Under the pieces are notes generated by a model. The model was given only the letters and a program-made list of their open reading frames with translations, did not search any database and was not told the origin of the DNA. A DNA stretch of 64,000 nucleotides. Source: Halobellus captivus. Lineage in GTDB: Archaea; Halobacteriota; Halobacteria; Halobacteriales; Haloferacaceae. Shown here one piece after another: positions 15,870 to 21,510 of this stretch. The translations under genes and the position numbers were made by a program. Position 1 is the first letter of the stretch, and each line of letters starts with the position of its first letter. The stretch is from the NCBI RefSeq assembly GCF_007655485.1, contig NZ_VJXQ01000002.1, positions 431,183-495,182 of the forward strand, written 5' to 3'.

Positions 15870-16976
15870 ATGGGTATCGCCGAGACGTACACACGCGGAC
15901 GGCAGTTCGCGATCGCGCGGCCGGGCTCCGTCCTTCTGACACTCGTCGGGGCCGTCCTGCTGTTCGATCTGCTCTCCGGTCTGGCGACCGGGCAGCACTC
16001 GTTCAGTAATGTCGGCTCGCTCGTGTGGGACGGGCTGATGCGCGGACTGGTCGTCGGTCTCGCGGGCATCGGGCTCTCTATGACGTACAGTATTTTGAAC
16101 TTCGCAAACTTCGCACACGGTGACTACATTACCGCAGGGGCGTTCTCCGGGTGGGCGGCGACGTACCTCATCGCCGGGATCGGCCGCGCCGACGTCGGGG
16201 CGCTGTTGCTCGTCGGTGCGGGCGGTTCCGTCTTCGGCGGCACGCTCGGAATCGGCGTCACCGGAACGCCCATCGCGGTCCTTGCGGGCATTCTCACCGC
16301 CGGAATCGTGACGATCGGCTTGGCGCTGTTCATCGATCGAACGGCGTTCCGCCCGATTCGCGACGCCGACGGGATCACGCTGCTCATCACCAGCATCGGC
16401 GTGGCGTTCGCGCTCCGGTATCTGATGCAGTTCGTCTTCGATTCGAGCGTCCGGGGGACGACGTCGCAGCCGCCTGCGTTCCCGCTGTATCTCGTCGACG
16501 GCGCGGTGCGGGTCAACGCCCACGACATCGCGCTCGTCGTGGTCGCCGGGAGCCTGATGCTTGCGGTGCATCTCCTCTTGCAGTTGACGAAACTCGGCAA
16601 GGCGATGCGAGCGATGGCCGATAACGAGGACCTCGCACAGATCACGGGCATTCCCACCGAGCGCGTCGTCCGCGCGGTGTGGGTTATCGGCGGGGGACTG
16701 ACGGGCGTCGCGGGGTATATGTTCATCCTCTGGAAGGGGACGCTCGGCTTCAACGACGGGTGGCTGTTGCTGCTCTTGATCTTCGCGGCGGTCATCCTCG
16801 GCGGGATCGGTTCGATCTACGGGGCCATCGTCGGCGGTCTCGCGATCGGTCTGACGGCGTCGCTGTCTGTCATCTGGATCCCATCGGCATTCACACGCGC
16901 GGCGGCGTTCGCGGTGATGATCGTCATCCTCTTGGTGAAACCCGAAGGGATCTTCTCCGGGAGGACGACCGCATGA
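15870..16976 (+). CDS. livH: Branched-chain amino-acid ABC transporter permease LivH
   Basis: A 368-aa polytopic protein (about eight to nine helices), one of two permeases of a hydrophobic-amino-acid-type importer. The family core is seen in GIGLSMTYSILNFANFAHGD and in the coupling loop GKAMRAMADNEDLAQITGIP (EAA-like). It has a longer N-terminus than bacterial LivH. A CTTATCAT TATA box lies at 15821-15829 and a GTGAGG ribosome-binding sequence about 10 bp before the ATG, so this mRNA has a short leader. First of four overlapping genes livHMGF. Confidence 0.95.
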   Translation: MGIAETYTRGRQFAIARPGSVLLTLVGAVLLFDLLSGLATGQHSFSNVGSLVWDGLMRGLVVGLAGIGLSMTYSILNFANFAHGDYITAGAFSGWAATYLIAGIGRADVGALLLVGAGGSVFGGTLGIGVTGTPIAVLAGILTAGIVTIGLALFIDRTAFRPIRDADGITLLITSIGVAFALRYLMQFVFDSSVRGTTSQPPAFPLYLVDGAVRVNAHDIALVVVAGSLMLAVHLLLQLTKLGKAMRAMADNEDLAQITGIPTERVVRAVWVIGGGLTGVAGYMFILWKGTLGFNDGWLLLLLIFAAVILGGIGSIYGAIVGGLAIGLTASLSVIWIPSAFTRAAAFAVMIVILLVKPEGIFSGRTTA

Positions 16977-18301
16977 GCGTCCGAGAAGACCTCGCAGATC
17001 GAGTTCCGGGCGGCGATGCGGGATTCATCGTGGCCGTTCTACTCGGCGTCTACGCCGCGTACGTACTCGCAGGCGTGGCACTCGGGTATTCGATCCGCGG
17101 CCAACTGAACTCCGTCGCGGTCTTGACCTTCTACATCGGCGTCTTCGCGATGCTCGCGCTCGCACTGAATCTACACTGGGGATACACGGGGCTGTTCAAC
17201 ATCGGCATCGTCGGCTTCATGGCCGTCGGTATCTACGTGATGGCGCTGGTGTCGAAGCCGCCAGCAGGCACTGGCGCGGCGCAGATCGGCGGGCTCGGTC
17301 TGCCGCTCGTCGTCGGCATCGTCGCCGGGATGGCGGCTGCCGCCCTGCTGGGCGCGTTGGTCGCGTTACCGGCGTTACGGTTGCGGGCTGACTACCTCGC
17401 GATCGTCACGATCGCGATGTCCGAGATCGTGCGCTTTACGTTCCTCTCGGGGACGCTGGAGGAGTTCCAACTGTTCGGACAGCAGGTCGGGTTCGGCGGC
17501 GGATCCGGGGTCATCCTCAATTTCACCGACCCGATGGAGGCGTTCTTCCGCTTCTTCGGACTGTGGGATTCGTATCTCGGCATCGTCACCGCGTTCGAGG
17601 TCATCATTCCGAACAACCCGAAGCCGGTCGTCGACGGCCTCGTCTACGGCGTGGTCCTGTTGGGCTTCGTCGCCGTGCTCTACTGGCTGCTCAAGCGAAC
17701 GGGAGAGTCGCCGTTCGGTCGCGTACTGAAAGCGATCCGCGAGGACGAAGATGTCGCGAACTCGCTCGGAAAGGACACGAACCGGTTCAAGATCAAGGCG
17801 TTCATGCTCGGGTGTGCGTTGATGGGGCTCGTCGGCATCCTCTGGCTGATGACGAGCGGCTCCGTCACGCCCAACTTCTTCCGCCCGCGAGTGACGTTCT
17901 TCGTGTGGATTGCGCTCATCATCGGCGGATCGGGCTCGAACACGGGCAGCGTCCTCGGCGGTGCGGTCTTCGCCGCGCTGCTGTTCCAGGGGCCGCGATA
18001 CGTGAAGAACCTCGTCGACACCGTGATTCCGAACGCCGACGCGCCTTCGAGCTTCGGCCCGGCGGTCGCCCCGCTGTTCTCGAACTTCGATCCGTCACCG
18101 CTCTTCTTCTACACCATCGACAGCATCAGACAGCTTCAGTTGGTGTTTATGGGACTCGTTCTCATCTGGCTGATGCACAACCGACCGGAGGGGATGCTCG
18201 GTCACCGCAAGGAGACGGCCGCGGGGATCCCGCTGACCTCGTCGAGAGCGAAGGGGACAGCGCACGCGGACGGCGGTGAGAGAGGTGGGACAGATGAGTG
18301 A
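16973..18301 (+). CDS. livM: Branched-chain amino-acid ABC transporter permease LivM
   Basis: A 442-aa second permease. Helical segments include ALALNLHWGYTGLFNIGIVG, the LivM hallmark, and the cytoplasmic coupling helix FGRVLKAIREDEDVANSLGK. It is longer than bacterial LivM (about 320-420 aa) because of an extended loop near residues 330-380. Its ATG overlaps the livH stop by four bases. The start is supported by that overlap; the frame remains open upstream but inside livH. Confidence 0.95.
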   Translation: MSVREDLADRVPGGDAGFIVAVLLGVYAAYVLAGVALGYSIRGQLNSVAVLTFYIGVFAMLALALNLHWGYTGLFNIGIVGFMAVGIYVMALVSKPPAGTGAAQIGGLGLPLVVGIVAGMAAAALLGALVALPALRLRADYLAIVTIAMSEIVRFTFLSGTLEEFQLFGQQVGFGGGSGVILNFTDPMEAFFRFFGLWDSYLGIVTAFEVIIPNNPKPVVDGLVYGVVLLGFVAVLYWLLKRTGESPFGRVLKAIREDEDVANSLGKDTNRFKIKAFMLGCALMGLVGILWLMTSGSVTPNFFRPRVTFFVWIALIIGGSGSNTGSVLGGAVFAALLFQGPRYVKNLVDTVIPNADAPSSFGPAVAPLFSNFDPSPLFFYTIDSIRQLQLVFMGLVLIWLMHNRPEGMLGHRKETAAGIPLTSSRAKGTAHADGGERGGTDE

Positions 18302-19193
18302 CACCGACGCGACGAACGCCGAGACTGTCGGGAGCATCCCCGACGACGCGGTCGCGACGTCCAGCGGGAGCGACGGATCGTCGAGCAGACTCGACCTCGG
18401 CTCCGGCGGCCCCGACGTCGCCGAACAGTACCCGCTGCAGGTGGAGGGGCTGCGAAAGACCTTCGGCGGCATCACCGCCGTCGACGACGCATCGTTCCGG
18501 GTCGAGCAGGGAAGTCTGACCGGTCTCATCGGTCCGAACGGGGCCGGGAAATCGACGACGTTCAACCTCATTACGGGGATGTTGCAGCCCGATTCGGGAA
18601 CCGTGACGTTCGACGGCGAAGACATCACCGGCCGGAAACCGCACGCGATCGCCAACAAGGGACTCGTTCGAACGTTCCAGATTGCGAGAGAACTTCAGGA
18701 TATGACGGTCTTGGAGAACCTGATGTTGGCTCCGAAGGGCCAGCAGGGGGAGACGCTCTGGCGCTCCGTCACACCCGGGTTCCGCGACGACGTTATCGAA
18801 CAGGAAGAAGAGCTCCTCGAACGGGTCTGGAACGTCCTCGAGTTCTTCGATATCGACCACATCGCCGAGGAGTACGCCGGAAACCTCTCCGGCGGGCAGC
18901 GCAAACTGCTGGAGATGGCCCGGGCGCTGCTCACCGACCCGGACATGCTCCTTCTCGACGAACCGTTCGCGGGCGTCAACCCCTCGTTGGAAAAGCGCCT
19001 CCTCGAACACATTCACGAGTTGCGCGAGCAGGGCTACACGTTCCTGCTCGTCGAACACGATATGGATCTGATTATGGAGAACTGCGAGCGAGTGATCGTC
19101 CTGCATCAGGGGCGCGTCCTGACGGAAGGCTCGCCCGAGGAGATACAGGCAAACGAGGAGGTCATCGAGGCCTACCTCGGGGGGAACGTATGA
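18294..19193 (+). CDS. livG: Branched-chain amino-acid ABC transporter ATPase LivG
   Basis: A 299-aa ATPase subunit: Walker A GPNGAGKSTTF, signature LSGGQRKLLEM, Walker B DMLLLDEPFAGVNP and the switch His in LLVEHDMDLIM. The first 45 residues are an acidic, Ser/Gly-rich extension absent from bacterial LivG. The ATG at 18294 overlaps the livM stop by eight bases. It pairs with LivF to power transport. Confidence 0.95.
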   Translation: MSDTDATNAETVGSIPDDAVATSSGSDGSSSRLDLGSGGPDVAEQYPLQVEGLRKTFGGITAVDDASFRVEQGSLTGLIGPNGAGKSTTFNLITGMLQPDSGTVTFDGEDITGRKPHAIANKGLVRTFQIARELQDMTVLENLMLAPKGQQGETLWRSVTPGFRDDVIEQEEELLERVWNVLEFFDIDHIAEEYAGNLSGGQRKLLEMARALLTDPDMLLLDEPFAGVNPSLEKRLLEHIHELREQGYTFLLVEHDMDLIMENCERVIVLHQGRVLTEGSPEEIQANEEVIEAYLGGNV

Positions 19194-19972
19194 GCGCCGA
19201 CACCGAGCGCGACCCGCCGCCGTACGACGCCGCGGTGTCGCAGGAGTCCGTACTCGACCGTGAGGCGCAGTCGCTCCTCGAAGTTCGCGGTCTCGACGCG
19301 GGCTACGGCGACCTACAGATTCTGACCGACGTCGACCTCGACGTCGGCGACGGCGAGTACGTCACCATCGTCGGCCCGAACGGGGCCGGGAAGTCGACCG
19401 TGATGAAGTCCGTGTTCGGTCTCACCACCCATATGGGCGGGACGGTGACGTTCGAAGGCGAGGACATCACCGGGCTCCGACCAGAGGAGATTATCCACGA
19501 GGGCATCGGTTACGTGCCGCAGAACCAAAACGTGTTCGCCTCGTTGACGGTTCGGGAGAATCTGGAGATGGGGGCGTACATCCTCGATTCCGTCCCGCAG
19601 GACGCTCTTGAGGCGGTCTTCGAGCGGTTCCCGATCCTCGAAAAACGCCAGTCGCAGAAGGCCGGAACGATGTCCGGCGGCCAACAGCAGATGCTCGCGA
19701 TGGGCCGCGCGCTGATGCTCGAACCCTCGCTGCTCCTGCTTGACGAACCGTCCGCAGGGCTCGCTCCCGACCTCGTCGACGATATGTTCGATCGCATCGA
19801 CGCGATCAACGACGACGGCACGGCGGTCTTGATGGTCGAACAGAACGCCAAGGAGGCGCTCCGTCGCTGTGATCGGGGCTACGTCCTCGCGAACGGACGG
19901 AACCGCTATATGGACGACGGCGATGTACTGCTGAACGACGAGGAAGTCAGAAAGGACTTCCTCGGCGGATAG
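19190..19972 (+). CDS. livF: Branched-chain amino-acid ABC transporter ATPase LivF
   Basis: A 260-aa ATPase: Walker A GPNGAGKSTVMK, signature MSGGQQQMLAMGRALM, Walker B SLLLLDEPSAGLAP and the LivF-type end VRKDFLGG. The ATGA overlap with livG means coupled translation. Last gene of livHMGF; downstream are a TTTTT run and then the convergent binding-protein gene. Confidence 0.95.
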   Translation: MSADTERDPPPYDAAVSQESVLDREAQSLLEVRGLDAGYGDLQILTDVDLDVGDGEYVTIVGPNGAGKSTVMKSVFGLTTHMGGTVTFEGEDITGLRPEEIIHEGIGYVPQNQNVFASLTVRENLEMGAYILDSVPQDALEAVFERFPILEKRQSQKAGTMSGGQQQMLAMGRALMLEPSLLLLDEPSAGLAPDLVDDMFDRIDAINDDGTAVLMVEQNAKEALRRCDRGYVLANGRNRYMDDGDVLLNDEEVRKDFLGG

Positions 19973-20100: not shown

Positions 20101-21510
20101 TTAGTTCCCCGACAACGCCGAACTGATGACCGACGAGTACGAGGACTCGCCGATGTTGATGCCGAGTTGGTCGTAGACCTCGCCGCCGAACTCGTCGGCG
20201 AACACGTTACTGAAGCGCTCGGAGAGCTGTTGACCGTAGTCGTTGTTGATGTAGATTGTCGTAACCGTGCTCACGTCCAGCCGTTCGGACATCACTTGCG
20301 CCATCACGCGGCCCTGAAGGATGTCCGAGGGAGCCGTCCGGAAGATGTAGTCGTCGTCTTCGAGGTTCGTGACCGACAGCGCGGTGGAGGACGGGGACAT
20401 TCCAACCATCTGATTCGGAATGAAGACCTCCTGTGCGGCGGCGATGTTCACGCCCGAGGAGGCCGACCCGCAGACGCTGGGTACGCCCGCGCTGGCGAGC
20501 GATTCGGCGGCAGCCGTCCCGGCGCTCGGCGAGGTCTCGGAATCTTCGATCTGAGCGTTGACCGAGAGGCCAGCCGGGTTGGCGTCGTTGACCTGCGTTA
20601 CGGGCAGTTCGGCGGCTTGAATCATCGGGCCACCCACGGAGGCCAGATCGCCTGTCTCCGGGAGGAGGATTCCGACCGACATCTCTCGGTCAGTGCCACC
20701 GGGTGAACTATCGGCCGACGGACCGCTGCCGTCGGGGTTCTCTCCCTCGAAGTTCTGCACGTCGATGGTCTCGTCGGTATTGTCGTTGAACTCCCAGACG
20801 GCGTAGGCCGCGGACGCCGGGTCGCCGTTTTGATCGAAGTTCGTCGCTGAGGACGCCCCTTGGTAGTTCACGTCCTCGCCGTTCGCCGCCGCTTCGATTC
20901 CTTCGGTGAGGTTTTCGGGAGTGACCTCCATCCCACCGGGGTTGGCGATCCGACGCATCTGATCGCGGACCGCGGTTCCGTTGTTCTCCCCCGCTGCGGC
21001 GTTCGCGAGCAACTGGAGGGCGACGGAGTCGTACGATTGTGAGGTGAACACGCCAGGTGAGGCGTCGTATTCCTCTTCGAACAGGGAGTTGAACGCCTCC
21101 TGACTCGGGCCGCCCGCAGCGGGTGCGGTCCCCGTGACGTTCGCCATCTCGTTACCAACCTGCCCCGGAAGGTCCCCGTCGCGGAGGCCGTCAGGGACGA
21201 GGATCGTCTCGCTCCCGTCCGACTGGCTGTAGTAGTCGCGGAACAGCTGGATCCCGCTTTCGGGGTAACAAATGAAGACGAGCCCTTCGGGTCCGTCTCC
21301 AGAGCCGCCGCCGCTATCGCCGCTACTGTCGCCGCCACTATCCCCACCGCTGTCTCCGCCACTATCTCCACCACTGTCGCCGCCACTATCCCCACCACTG
21401 TCGCCGCCGTCGTCCGGGCTTCCGATACACCCGGCGATGCCGGTCGCTCCGATCGTTCCCGCCGCACCGACCTGTTTCAGGAATCTGCGCCGTACGATAT
21501 CACGTGCCAT
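20101..21510 (-). CDS. livK: ABC transporter substrate-binding lipoprotein LivK, apparently circularly permuted
   Basis: A 469-aa Tat lipoprotein with signal RRRFLKQVGAAG, lipobox Cys28 and then a Gly-Gly-Asp-Ser linker to about residue 72. In ordinary type I binding proteins the mature chain starts with the lobe-1 strand MSVGILLPETGDL and later reaches GPEGLVFICYPESG. Here the order is reversed. GPEGLVF through the usual C-terminal region (VNYQGASSATNFDQNGD) comes first (about residues 73-257, DNA 21294-20740), then a short linker GSGPSADSSPGG, then the canonical N-terminal half, ending at SALSGN-stop (20697-20104). Joining the end to the start restores a normal LivK sequence. The cut falls in a predicted surface loop between a helix and a strand. 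It is convergent with livHMGF rather than part of that operon. ATG at 21510 fits the TATA box at 21531-21540. Confidence 0.9.
   Translation of the reverse strand: MARDIVRRRFLKQVGAAGTIGATGIAGCIGSPDDGGDSGGDSGGDSGGDSGGDSGGDSGGDSSGDSGGGSGDGPEGLVFICYPESGIQLFRDYYSQSDGSETILVPDGLRDGDLPGQVGNEMANVTGTAPAAGGPSQEAFNSLFEEEYDASPGVFTSQSYDSVALQLLANAAAGENNGTAVRDQMRRIANPGGMEVTPENLTEGIEAAANGEDVNYQGASSATNFDQNGDPASAAYAVWEFNDNTDETIDVQNFEGENPDGSGPSADSSPGGTDREMSVGILLPETGDLASVGGPMIQAAELPVTQVNDANPAGLSVNAQIEDSETSPSAGTAAAESLASAGVPSVCGSASSGVNIAAAQEVFIPNQMVGMSPSSTALSVTNLEDDDYIFRTAPSDILQGRVMAQVMSERLDVSTVTTIYINNDYGQQLSERFSNVFADEFGGEVYDQLGINIGESSYSSVISSALSGN
21310..21405. repeat. 12-bp coding minisatellite (Gly-Gly-Asp-Ser linker)
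   Basis: On the minus strand the livK linker is built of about eight Gly-Gly-Asp-Ser (12-nt) units with synonymous drift, such as GGC/GGA/GGG. Such flexible acidic linkers hold haloarchaeal binding lipoproteins off the membrane. The TctC-like protein at 62385 has a similar but less regular linker. It is a likely site of length variation. Confidence 0.85.

Follow-up and report, generated by a model that had tools for sequence, protein, structure and literature searches.

Natural circular permutations are usually viewed as rare and ancient, and as lying between distant homologues; in the standard model, they arise by a tandem duplication followed by the loss of the outer halves. Binding proteins of the LivJ/LivK family, such as those in PDB entries 3ip5, 4n0q, 3td9, and 1z15, run from the N-half to the C-half, with the N-terminus in lobe 1. 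Pfam and structure matches assign them to the same fold and family as the haloarchaeal protein described here, and livHMGF is a neighbour in both cases, whereas the halves of the haloarchaeal protein stand in the opposite order.

A naturally permuted type I ABC substrate-binding protein has been described in Treponema pallidum, namely TpMglB-2 (Tp0684), for which the class 'Type Ic' or 'Cluster Bc' was proposed, and it resembles the permuted LivK in its membrane tether (predicted in LivK), in a fourth cross-over near the hinge, and in keeping its fold (PMC4990184). Its authors proposed that the permuted topology might serve as an adaptation to being tethered (PMC4990184). However, TpMglB-2 is a glucose-binding MglB outside the LivK family, and it is cut in the N-lobe, with the first three strands placed last and the permuted part poorly conserved (PMC4990184). 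In contrast, the permuted LivK is cut in lobe 2, about half of the protein is swapped, the identity to ordinary homologues is about 50 percent, and the event has apparently been repeated. By the text of that paper, 'Type Ic' denotes proteins with the first three N-lobe strands at the C-terminus (PMC4990184). The permuted LivK does not fit this description, as its cut is in lobe 2 and the whole N-half comes last.

Our literature search, with subscription papers outside its scope, returned no description of a permuted LivK or of a permuted haloarchaeal binding protein. An initial sequence-only reading had stated that no natural permutation was known in this transporter family, which agrees with the search for LivK itself and has to be qualified by TpMglB-2 in another family of type I binding proteins. 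In relation to the literature searched, the permuted LivK is new, as are its spread in Halobacteria, the probable repetition of the event at one loop, and the second step of permutation.

Genomic features of the permuted livK locus

The window, i.e., the whole stretch of 64,000 nucleotides of Halobellus captivus DNA that was analysed, carries the following features.

15870..16976, (+): livH permease (ORF; in relatives likewise placed beside permuted and ordinary livK)
16973..18301, (+): livM permease (ORF, relatives)
18276..19193, (+): livG ATPase (ORF, relatives)
19190..19972, (+): livF ATPase (ORF, relatives)
20101..21510, (-): permuted livK gene, 469 amino acids plus stop (ORF)
21427..21510, (-): signal with twin-arginine RRRFLK and lipobox GIAGC (Cys28), predicted membrane lipid anchor (sequence; lipidation putative)
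21295..21426, (-): Gly/Asp/Ser linker from the anchor to the folded domain, residues 29-72 (sequence)
20746..21294, (-): canonical C-terminal half, residues 73-255, now first (alignment to ordinary homologues; model elements E4-8 to E173-183)
20686..20745, (-): linker bridging the former C- and N-termini, around FEGENPDGSGPSADSSPGGTDR, residues ~256-275 (conservation in group CP1; model)
20104..20685, (-): canonical N-terminal half, residues 276-469, now last (alignments, model, and match to 3ip5 residues 1-193)

The ORF is built as the sequence-only reading had proposed, from a signal, a Gly/Asp/Ser linker, the C-half, a second linker, and the N-half, ending in SALSGN and a stop. The signal (residues 1-28) reads MARDIVRRRFLKQVG...GIAGC, with Cys28 at about 21429, and the Gly/Asp/Ser linker is encoded by a 12/24-bp tandem repeat at 21306-21408. 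The C-half opens with GPEGLVF at residue 73 (position 21294), the new N-terminus of the folded domain, while the terminal SALSGN (20121-20104) marks the break in lobe 2. The block coordinates first given were accurate except at the start of the N-half, which lies 15 bases further on, at 20682 instead of 20697, where residue 277 opens MSVGILL. In CP1, the group of permuted genes that includes the one in the window, positions G191, A194, D195, G199, G200, and R203 of the linker joining the old termini are nearly invariant in the alignment.

In the window, livH, livM, livG, and livF point toward livK, which is convergent to them, and 128 bases separate the end of livF from the livK stop. The same convergent arrangement was found in nearly all loci examined that carry a permuted livK, and ordinary-order homologues are placed likewise (for example, Halobium salinum L295, Halococcus morrhuae L296, and Salinarchaeum laminariae L293); therefore, the two orders are alternative forms at a corresponding locus. 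Ordinary-order haloarchaeal LivK proteins also share with the permuted ones the same type of signal and linker and about 45-59 percent identity, half by half, but they keep the canonical order and lack the linker that joins the old termini. One genome of the window's genus (G013) carries both a permuted livK (L119 7717) and an ordinary-order livK (L042 8042), each at its own livHMGF locus.

Block order and predicted structure

The window protein matched the Pfam profile Peripla_BP_6 at 87.3 bits (cut-off 31.7) in two swapped stretches, with profile positions 3-187 falling on residues 278-466, in its C-terminal part; this block order is far beyond chance. When the protein was rewritten in canonical order, the two stretches became a single match over profile positions 4-311 and the score rose from 87 to 101 bits, while the best PDB match rose from 50.6 to 58.7 bits and extended over nearly the full length (residues 3-310). 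The score on NCBIfam NF011933 (high-affinity branched-chain amino acid binding protein), 59.4 bits, is below the curated cut-off of 477 and gives no reading of specificity, because an ordinary-order homologue likewise reached merely 59.8 bits.

Against ordinary homologues, the protein aligned in two blocks of exchanged order, as had been anticipated. For instance, on the minus strand of one genome (G018, C1), residues 271-468 of the query lie at 2278264-2277677 and residues 74-256 follow 3 bases on, at 2277673-2277125. An AlphaFold2 model, for which the window protein was combined with 43 permuted relatives, predicted the intact two-lobe fold that a viable permutation had been expected to give (mean pLDDT 91.1, pTM 0.91), with the linker joining the old termini modelled at pLDDT ~79-89. 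In the predicted structures, the strand and helix order is that of an ordinary-order control with the two blocks exchanged.

Since structural aligners are sequential, structure searches with the permuted model match just the N-half at full quality: VIA-align placed model residues 203-397 on 3ip5 residues 1-193 (Z 15, 192 residues, rmsd 1.8), compared with Z 36 over 335 residues for the ordinary-order control, and for the C-half of the permuted model the match is limited to sequence and to secondary-structure order. In the canonical fold, these alignments place the break near residue 193, after the helix SSYSSVISSAL and before the strand GLVFICYPE, in what we take, from established knowledge of the LIV-binding protein, to be lobe 2. 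Both proposals of the sequence-only reading on this point, i.e., new termini in a lobe-2 loop and old termini joined by a linker, are supported. Invariant residues are drawn from both halves (D35-G36, S280, S303-T304, and Y353-G354 in the numbering of alignment A1), and they presumably include counterparts of the residues that bind amino acids in LivJ and are likely ligand positions, an equivalence that we assume rather than compute.

The window ORF thus encodes a substrate-binding protein of LivK type (type I, Peripla_BP_6) that is circularly permuted, a conclusion on which the sequence blocks, the intact predicted fold, the structural comparison, and the ordinary-order control agree. The profile match, the predicted two-lobe fold, and the LivHMGF linkage place it in the Peripla_BP_6 / LivJ-LivK type I family. 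It lacks the strand order that is canonical there and that puts the N-terminus in lobe 1; it is filed as a permuted variant because its blocks are swapped.

Distribution and selection

In a set of 40 related genomes, 21 carry a protein collinear with the permuted one over most of its length, not counting the window's own. At a threshold of E <= 1e-75, strict enough to pass hardly anything but collinear matches, 161 of the 392 genomes sampled from the order, in 36 of 95 genera, gave a match, as did 171 of 391 genomes of a class sample that overlaps the former. The carriers include Haloferax, Halobellus, Haloquadratum, Halogeometricum, Halorubrum, Halorussus, Haladaptatus, Natrialba, Natronorubrum, and Haloarcula, and among them are single-contig assemblies and named isolates (Haloferax denitrificans, Haloferax gibbonsii, and Natrialba asiatica). 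No record in the plasmid collection covered 80 percent of the window protein. All 78 permuted proteins first examined are broken at the same loop: ordinary-order proteins read through it as ...SSYTSKLQEALxxxPDLLVVIGYP..., while permuted ones end ...SSYSSVIxxALSG and start their domain with GPDxLxVIGYP. A misassembly or a chimeric gene confined to one genome, which was the chief concern of the sequence-only reading and which inspection of the junctions in relatives was meant to reveal, has next to no probability, since the same junctions recur in more than 150 genomes; assembly error is rejected by this conservation.

Decay of a functionless paralogue is another conceivable explanation, and there are a few broken copies, i.e., an interrupted gene of group CP3 and a partial second copy in another genome. 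However, dN/dS is about 0.07-0.17 in CP1, CP2, CP3, and the second permutation type, the frames are open and the signal peptides kept, and a permuted livK is usually the sole livK found at its own liv locus. The permuted livK is under purifying selection, decay is highly improbable, and the permutation is almost certainly real and functional. All livK examined encode a twin arginine, and 86 of 93 permuted genes as well as 52 of 57 ordinary ones encode a lipobox; as both features are common to the two orders, permuted and ordinary LivK have the tether in common and differ just in where it enters.

Phylogenetic analysis of permuted livK

In a protein tree, built after the permuted halves had been put back in canonical order, the permuted genes fell into distinct, supported clades that were set apart by ordinary-order genes: CP1, to which the window gene belongs; CP2, from Haloarcula and kin; CP3, a Halorubrum-type paralogue; and CP4. 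The same groups were returned by a concatenated LivHMGF tree, which contains no permuted sequence, and the trees split the permuted genes into CP1, CP2/CP4, and CP3. The partner-gene tests assume joint transmission of livK and livHMGF. In them, constraining all permuted loci to one clade cost 310 log-likelihood units (AU p = 1e-5); the pairs CP1+CP3, CP1+CP2, CP2+CP3, and CP1+CP4 were rejected (5e-6 to 7e-4 or less) and CP2+CP4 was not (p = 0.18), all AU p-values being somewhat optimistic as the CP groups were defined after the first tree. With the protein alone, CP1+CP3 was rejected (p = 0.0135), CP1+CP2 was not (p = 0.19), and joining all permuted groups gave p = 0.014 or 0.157, depending on sampling. 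The permuted loci are non-monophyletic in the partner genes; a single permuted clade is rejected there, with less decisive results for the protein alone.

The linkers that join the old termini read FEGENPDGAGPSADSGPGG in CP1, DFGGSGDIPQPEP in CP2, EFGNELSDEDxNATAADPVGVD in CP3, and PFEGGSDGGGGSDSIPG in CP4, and by their sequence they do not look homologous, although the cut site is identical in every group. This shared site would be explained by a single early permutation, with the intervening ordinary-order genes as reversions or with permuted livK moved between liv loci. The two protein-alone tests that did not reject grouping (p = 0.157 and 0.19) allow such a history, and counts of changes on the tree cannot separate gain from loss. 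Nevertheless, bacterial relatives in PDB and Pfam have the ordinary order, so that this order is ancestral and a reversion would require the same rearrangement again; the dissimilar linkers, the partner genes, and the rejection of CP1+CP3 by the protein also speak against it, as does CP3, which groups with much the same ordinary-order loci in the protein and partner trees. A single origin is accordingly given as unlikely, and we think that the permutation probably arose more than once independently. At least two origins in Halobacteria are likely and three are probable, as is recurrence at one site.

Permuted homologues in Thermoplasmata and a second permutation type

A metagenome-assembled genome of Thermoplasmata (L313, 888-2438) encodes a permuted homologue with 28 percent identity and the same cut, which carries an N-terminal transmembrane anchor instead of a lipobox and has convergent livF/livG. 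The permuted order occurs in 3 of 15 genomes of this class with relatives, one sequence of which was read; the others of the 15 match the L313 protein in two swapped blocks at about 36-45 percent identity. By identity, the L313 protein is closer to these ordinary-order relatives than to the haloarchaeal permuted proteins, suggesting that the permutation in Thermoplasmata had another origin.

A second permutation type is found in three genomes, one of which is a single contig (L226 7726-9060, L229 7670-9001, and L230 7896-9341, the last being the same locus as L289). These genes keep the CP1-type linker, the break in lobe 2 is healed (EALSGDPDTLVVIGYP), and lobe 1 has a new break after helix 1 and before strand 2, which moves the first ~35 residues to the end. 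As this type nests within CP1 at two places in both trees, the simplest reading would be that an already permuted CP1 gene was permuted again. Taken as a whole, the history that we moderately favour would comprise at least three independent permutations at the same lobe-2 loop in Halobacteria (CP1, CP2/CP4, and CP3), another in Thermoplasmata, and re-permutation of CP1 at the lobe-1 loop in two lineages, probably since a relocated tether is tolerated or favoured.

Proposed function and origin

The permuted LivK is very probably a naturally permuted substrate-binding protein of the adjacent LivHMGF ABC importer, for a ligand that may be amino-acid-like. The chain would be exported by the Tat route and is probably lipid-anchored at its N-terminus, and its folded part, running from the canonical C-half through a conserved, ordered linker to the canonical N-half, is expected to yield an ordinary Venus-flytrap binding protein. 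The predicted mechanical difference is that the lipid tether would enter at lobe 2 instead of lobe 1 and that the linker would form a fourth connection between the lobes near the hinge. This shift of the membrane tether is our leading guess for an advantage of the permutation; adaptation to tethering would fit the data, and neutrality is equally possible.

As to its origin, the gene may have arisen by tandem duplication and subsequent trimming. Many CP1 proteins have a short terminal redundancy, ending in ALSGPDS with the domain starting at GPDG, so that GPD stands at both places, which weakly fits the duplication route. Apart from the second permutation type and one interrupted gene, the loci examined held no duplication intermediate or leftover half, as would also be expected if the halves had once been separate genes (a split livK) that were re-fused in the other order. 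However, no split livK was seen in these loci either, and the CP1 redundancy fits duplication better, though weakly; the re-fusion of a split gene is considered rather improbable, and tandem duplication is preferred.

Permuted and ordinary forms share a locus in closely related and often cultivable archaea (Haloferax, Haloarcula, and Halorubrum versus Halobium and Halococcus), and therefore the origin of the permutation, its effects on folding, tethering, and transport, and its repeatability are directly testable. The locus offers a natural experiment in protein rearrangement, in which a swap at one spot is suggested to have occurred several times. For annotation, sequential profile or fold searches catch just half of a permuted protein, and the evolved break points and linkers could be used in biosensor design.

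Some loci depart from this arrangement in copy number or integrity. In G180 (L231 8067-10802), a CP3-type livK is interrupted, its frame stopping after about residue 361 and its tail lying ~1.4 kb further, as after an insertion. In G008 (L048 16440), a partial second permuted livK lies 11 kb from the first, with an N run and no proper end. Two contigs of Halorussus halobius (L249 and L250) carry apparently identical livK-livHMGF regions of ~13 kb, representing a large duplication or assembly redundancy. Finally, tandem pairs of permuted livK are present in Haladaptatus and kin (L079, L080, L083, L084, L259, and L260); because one copy has the lipobox cysteine and the other lacks it, such pairs possibly comprise one anchored and one released form.
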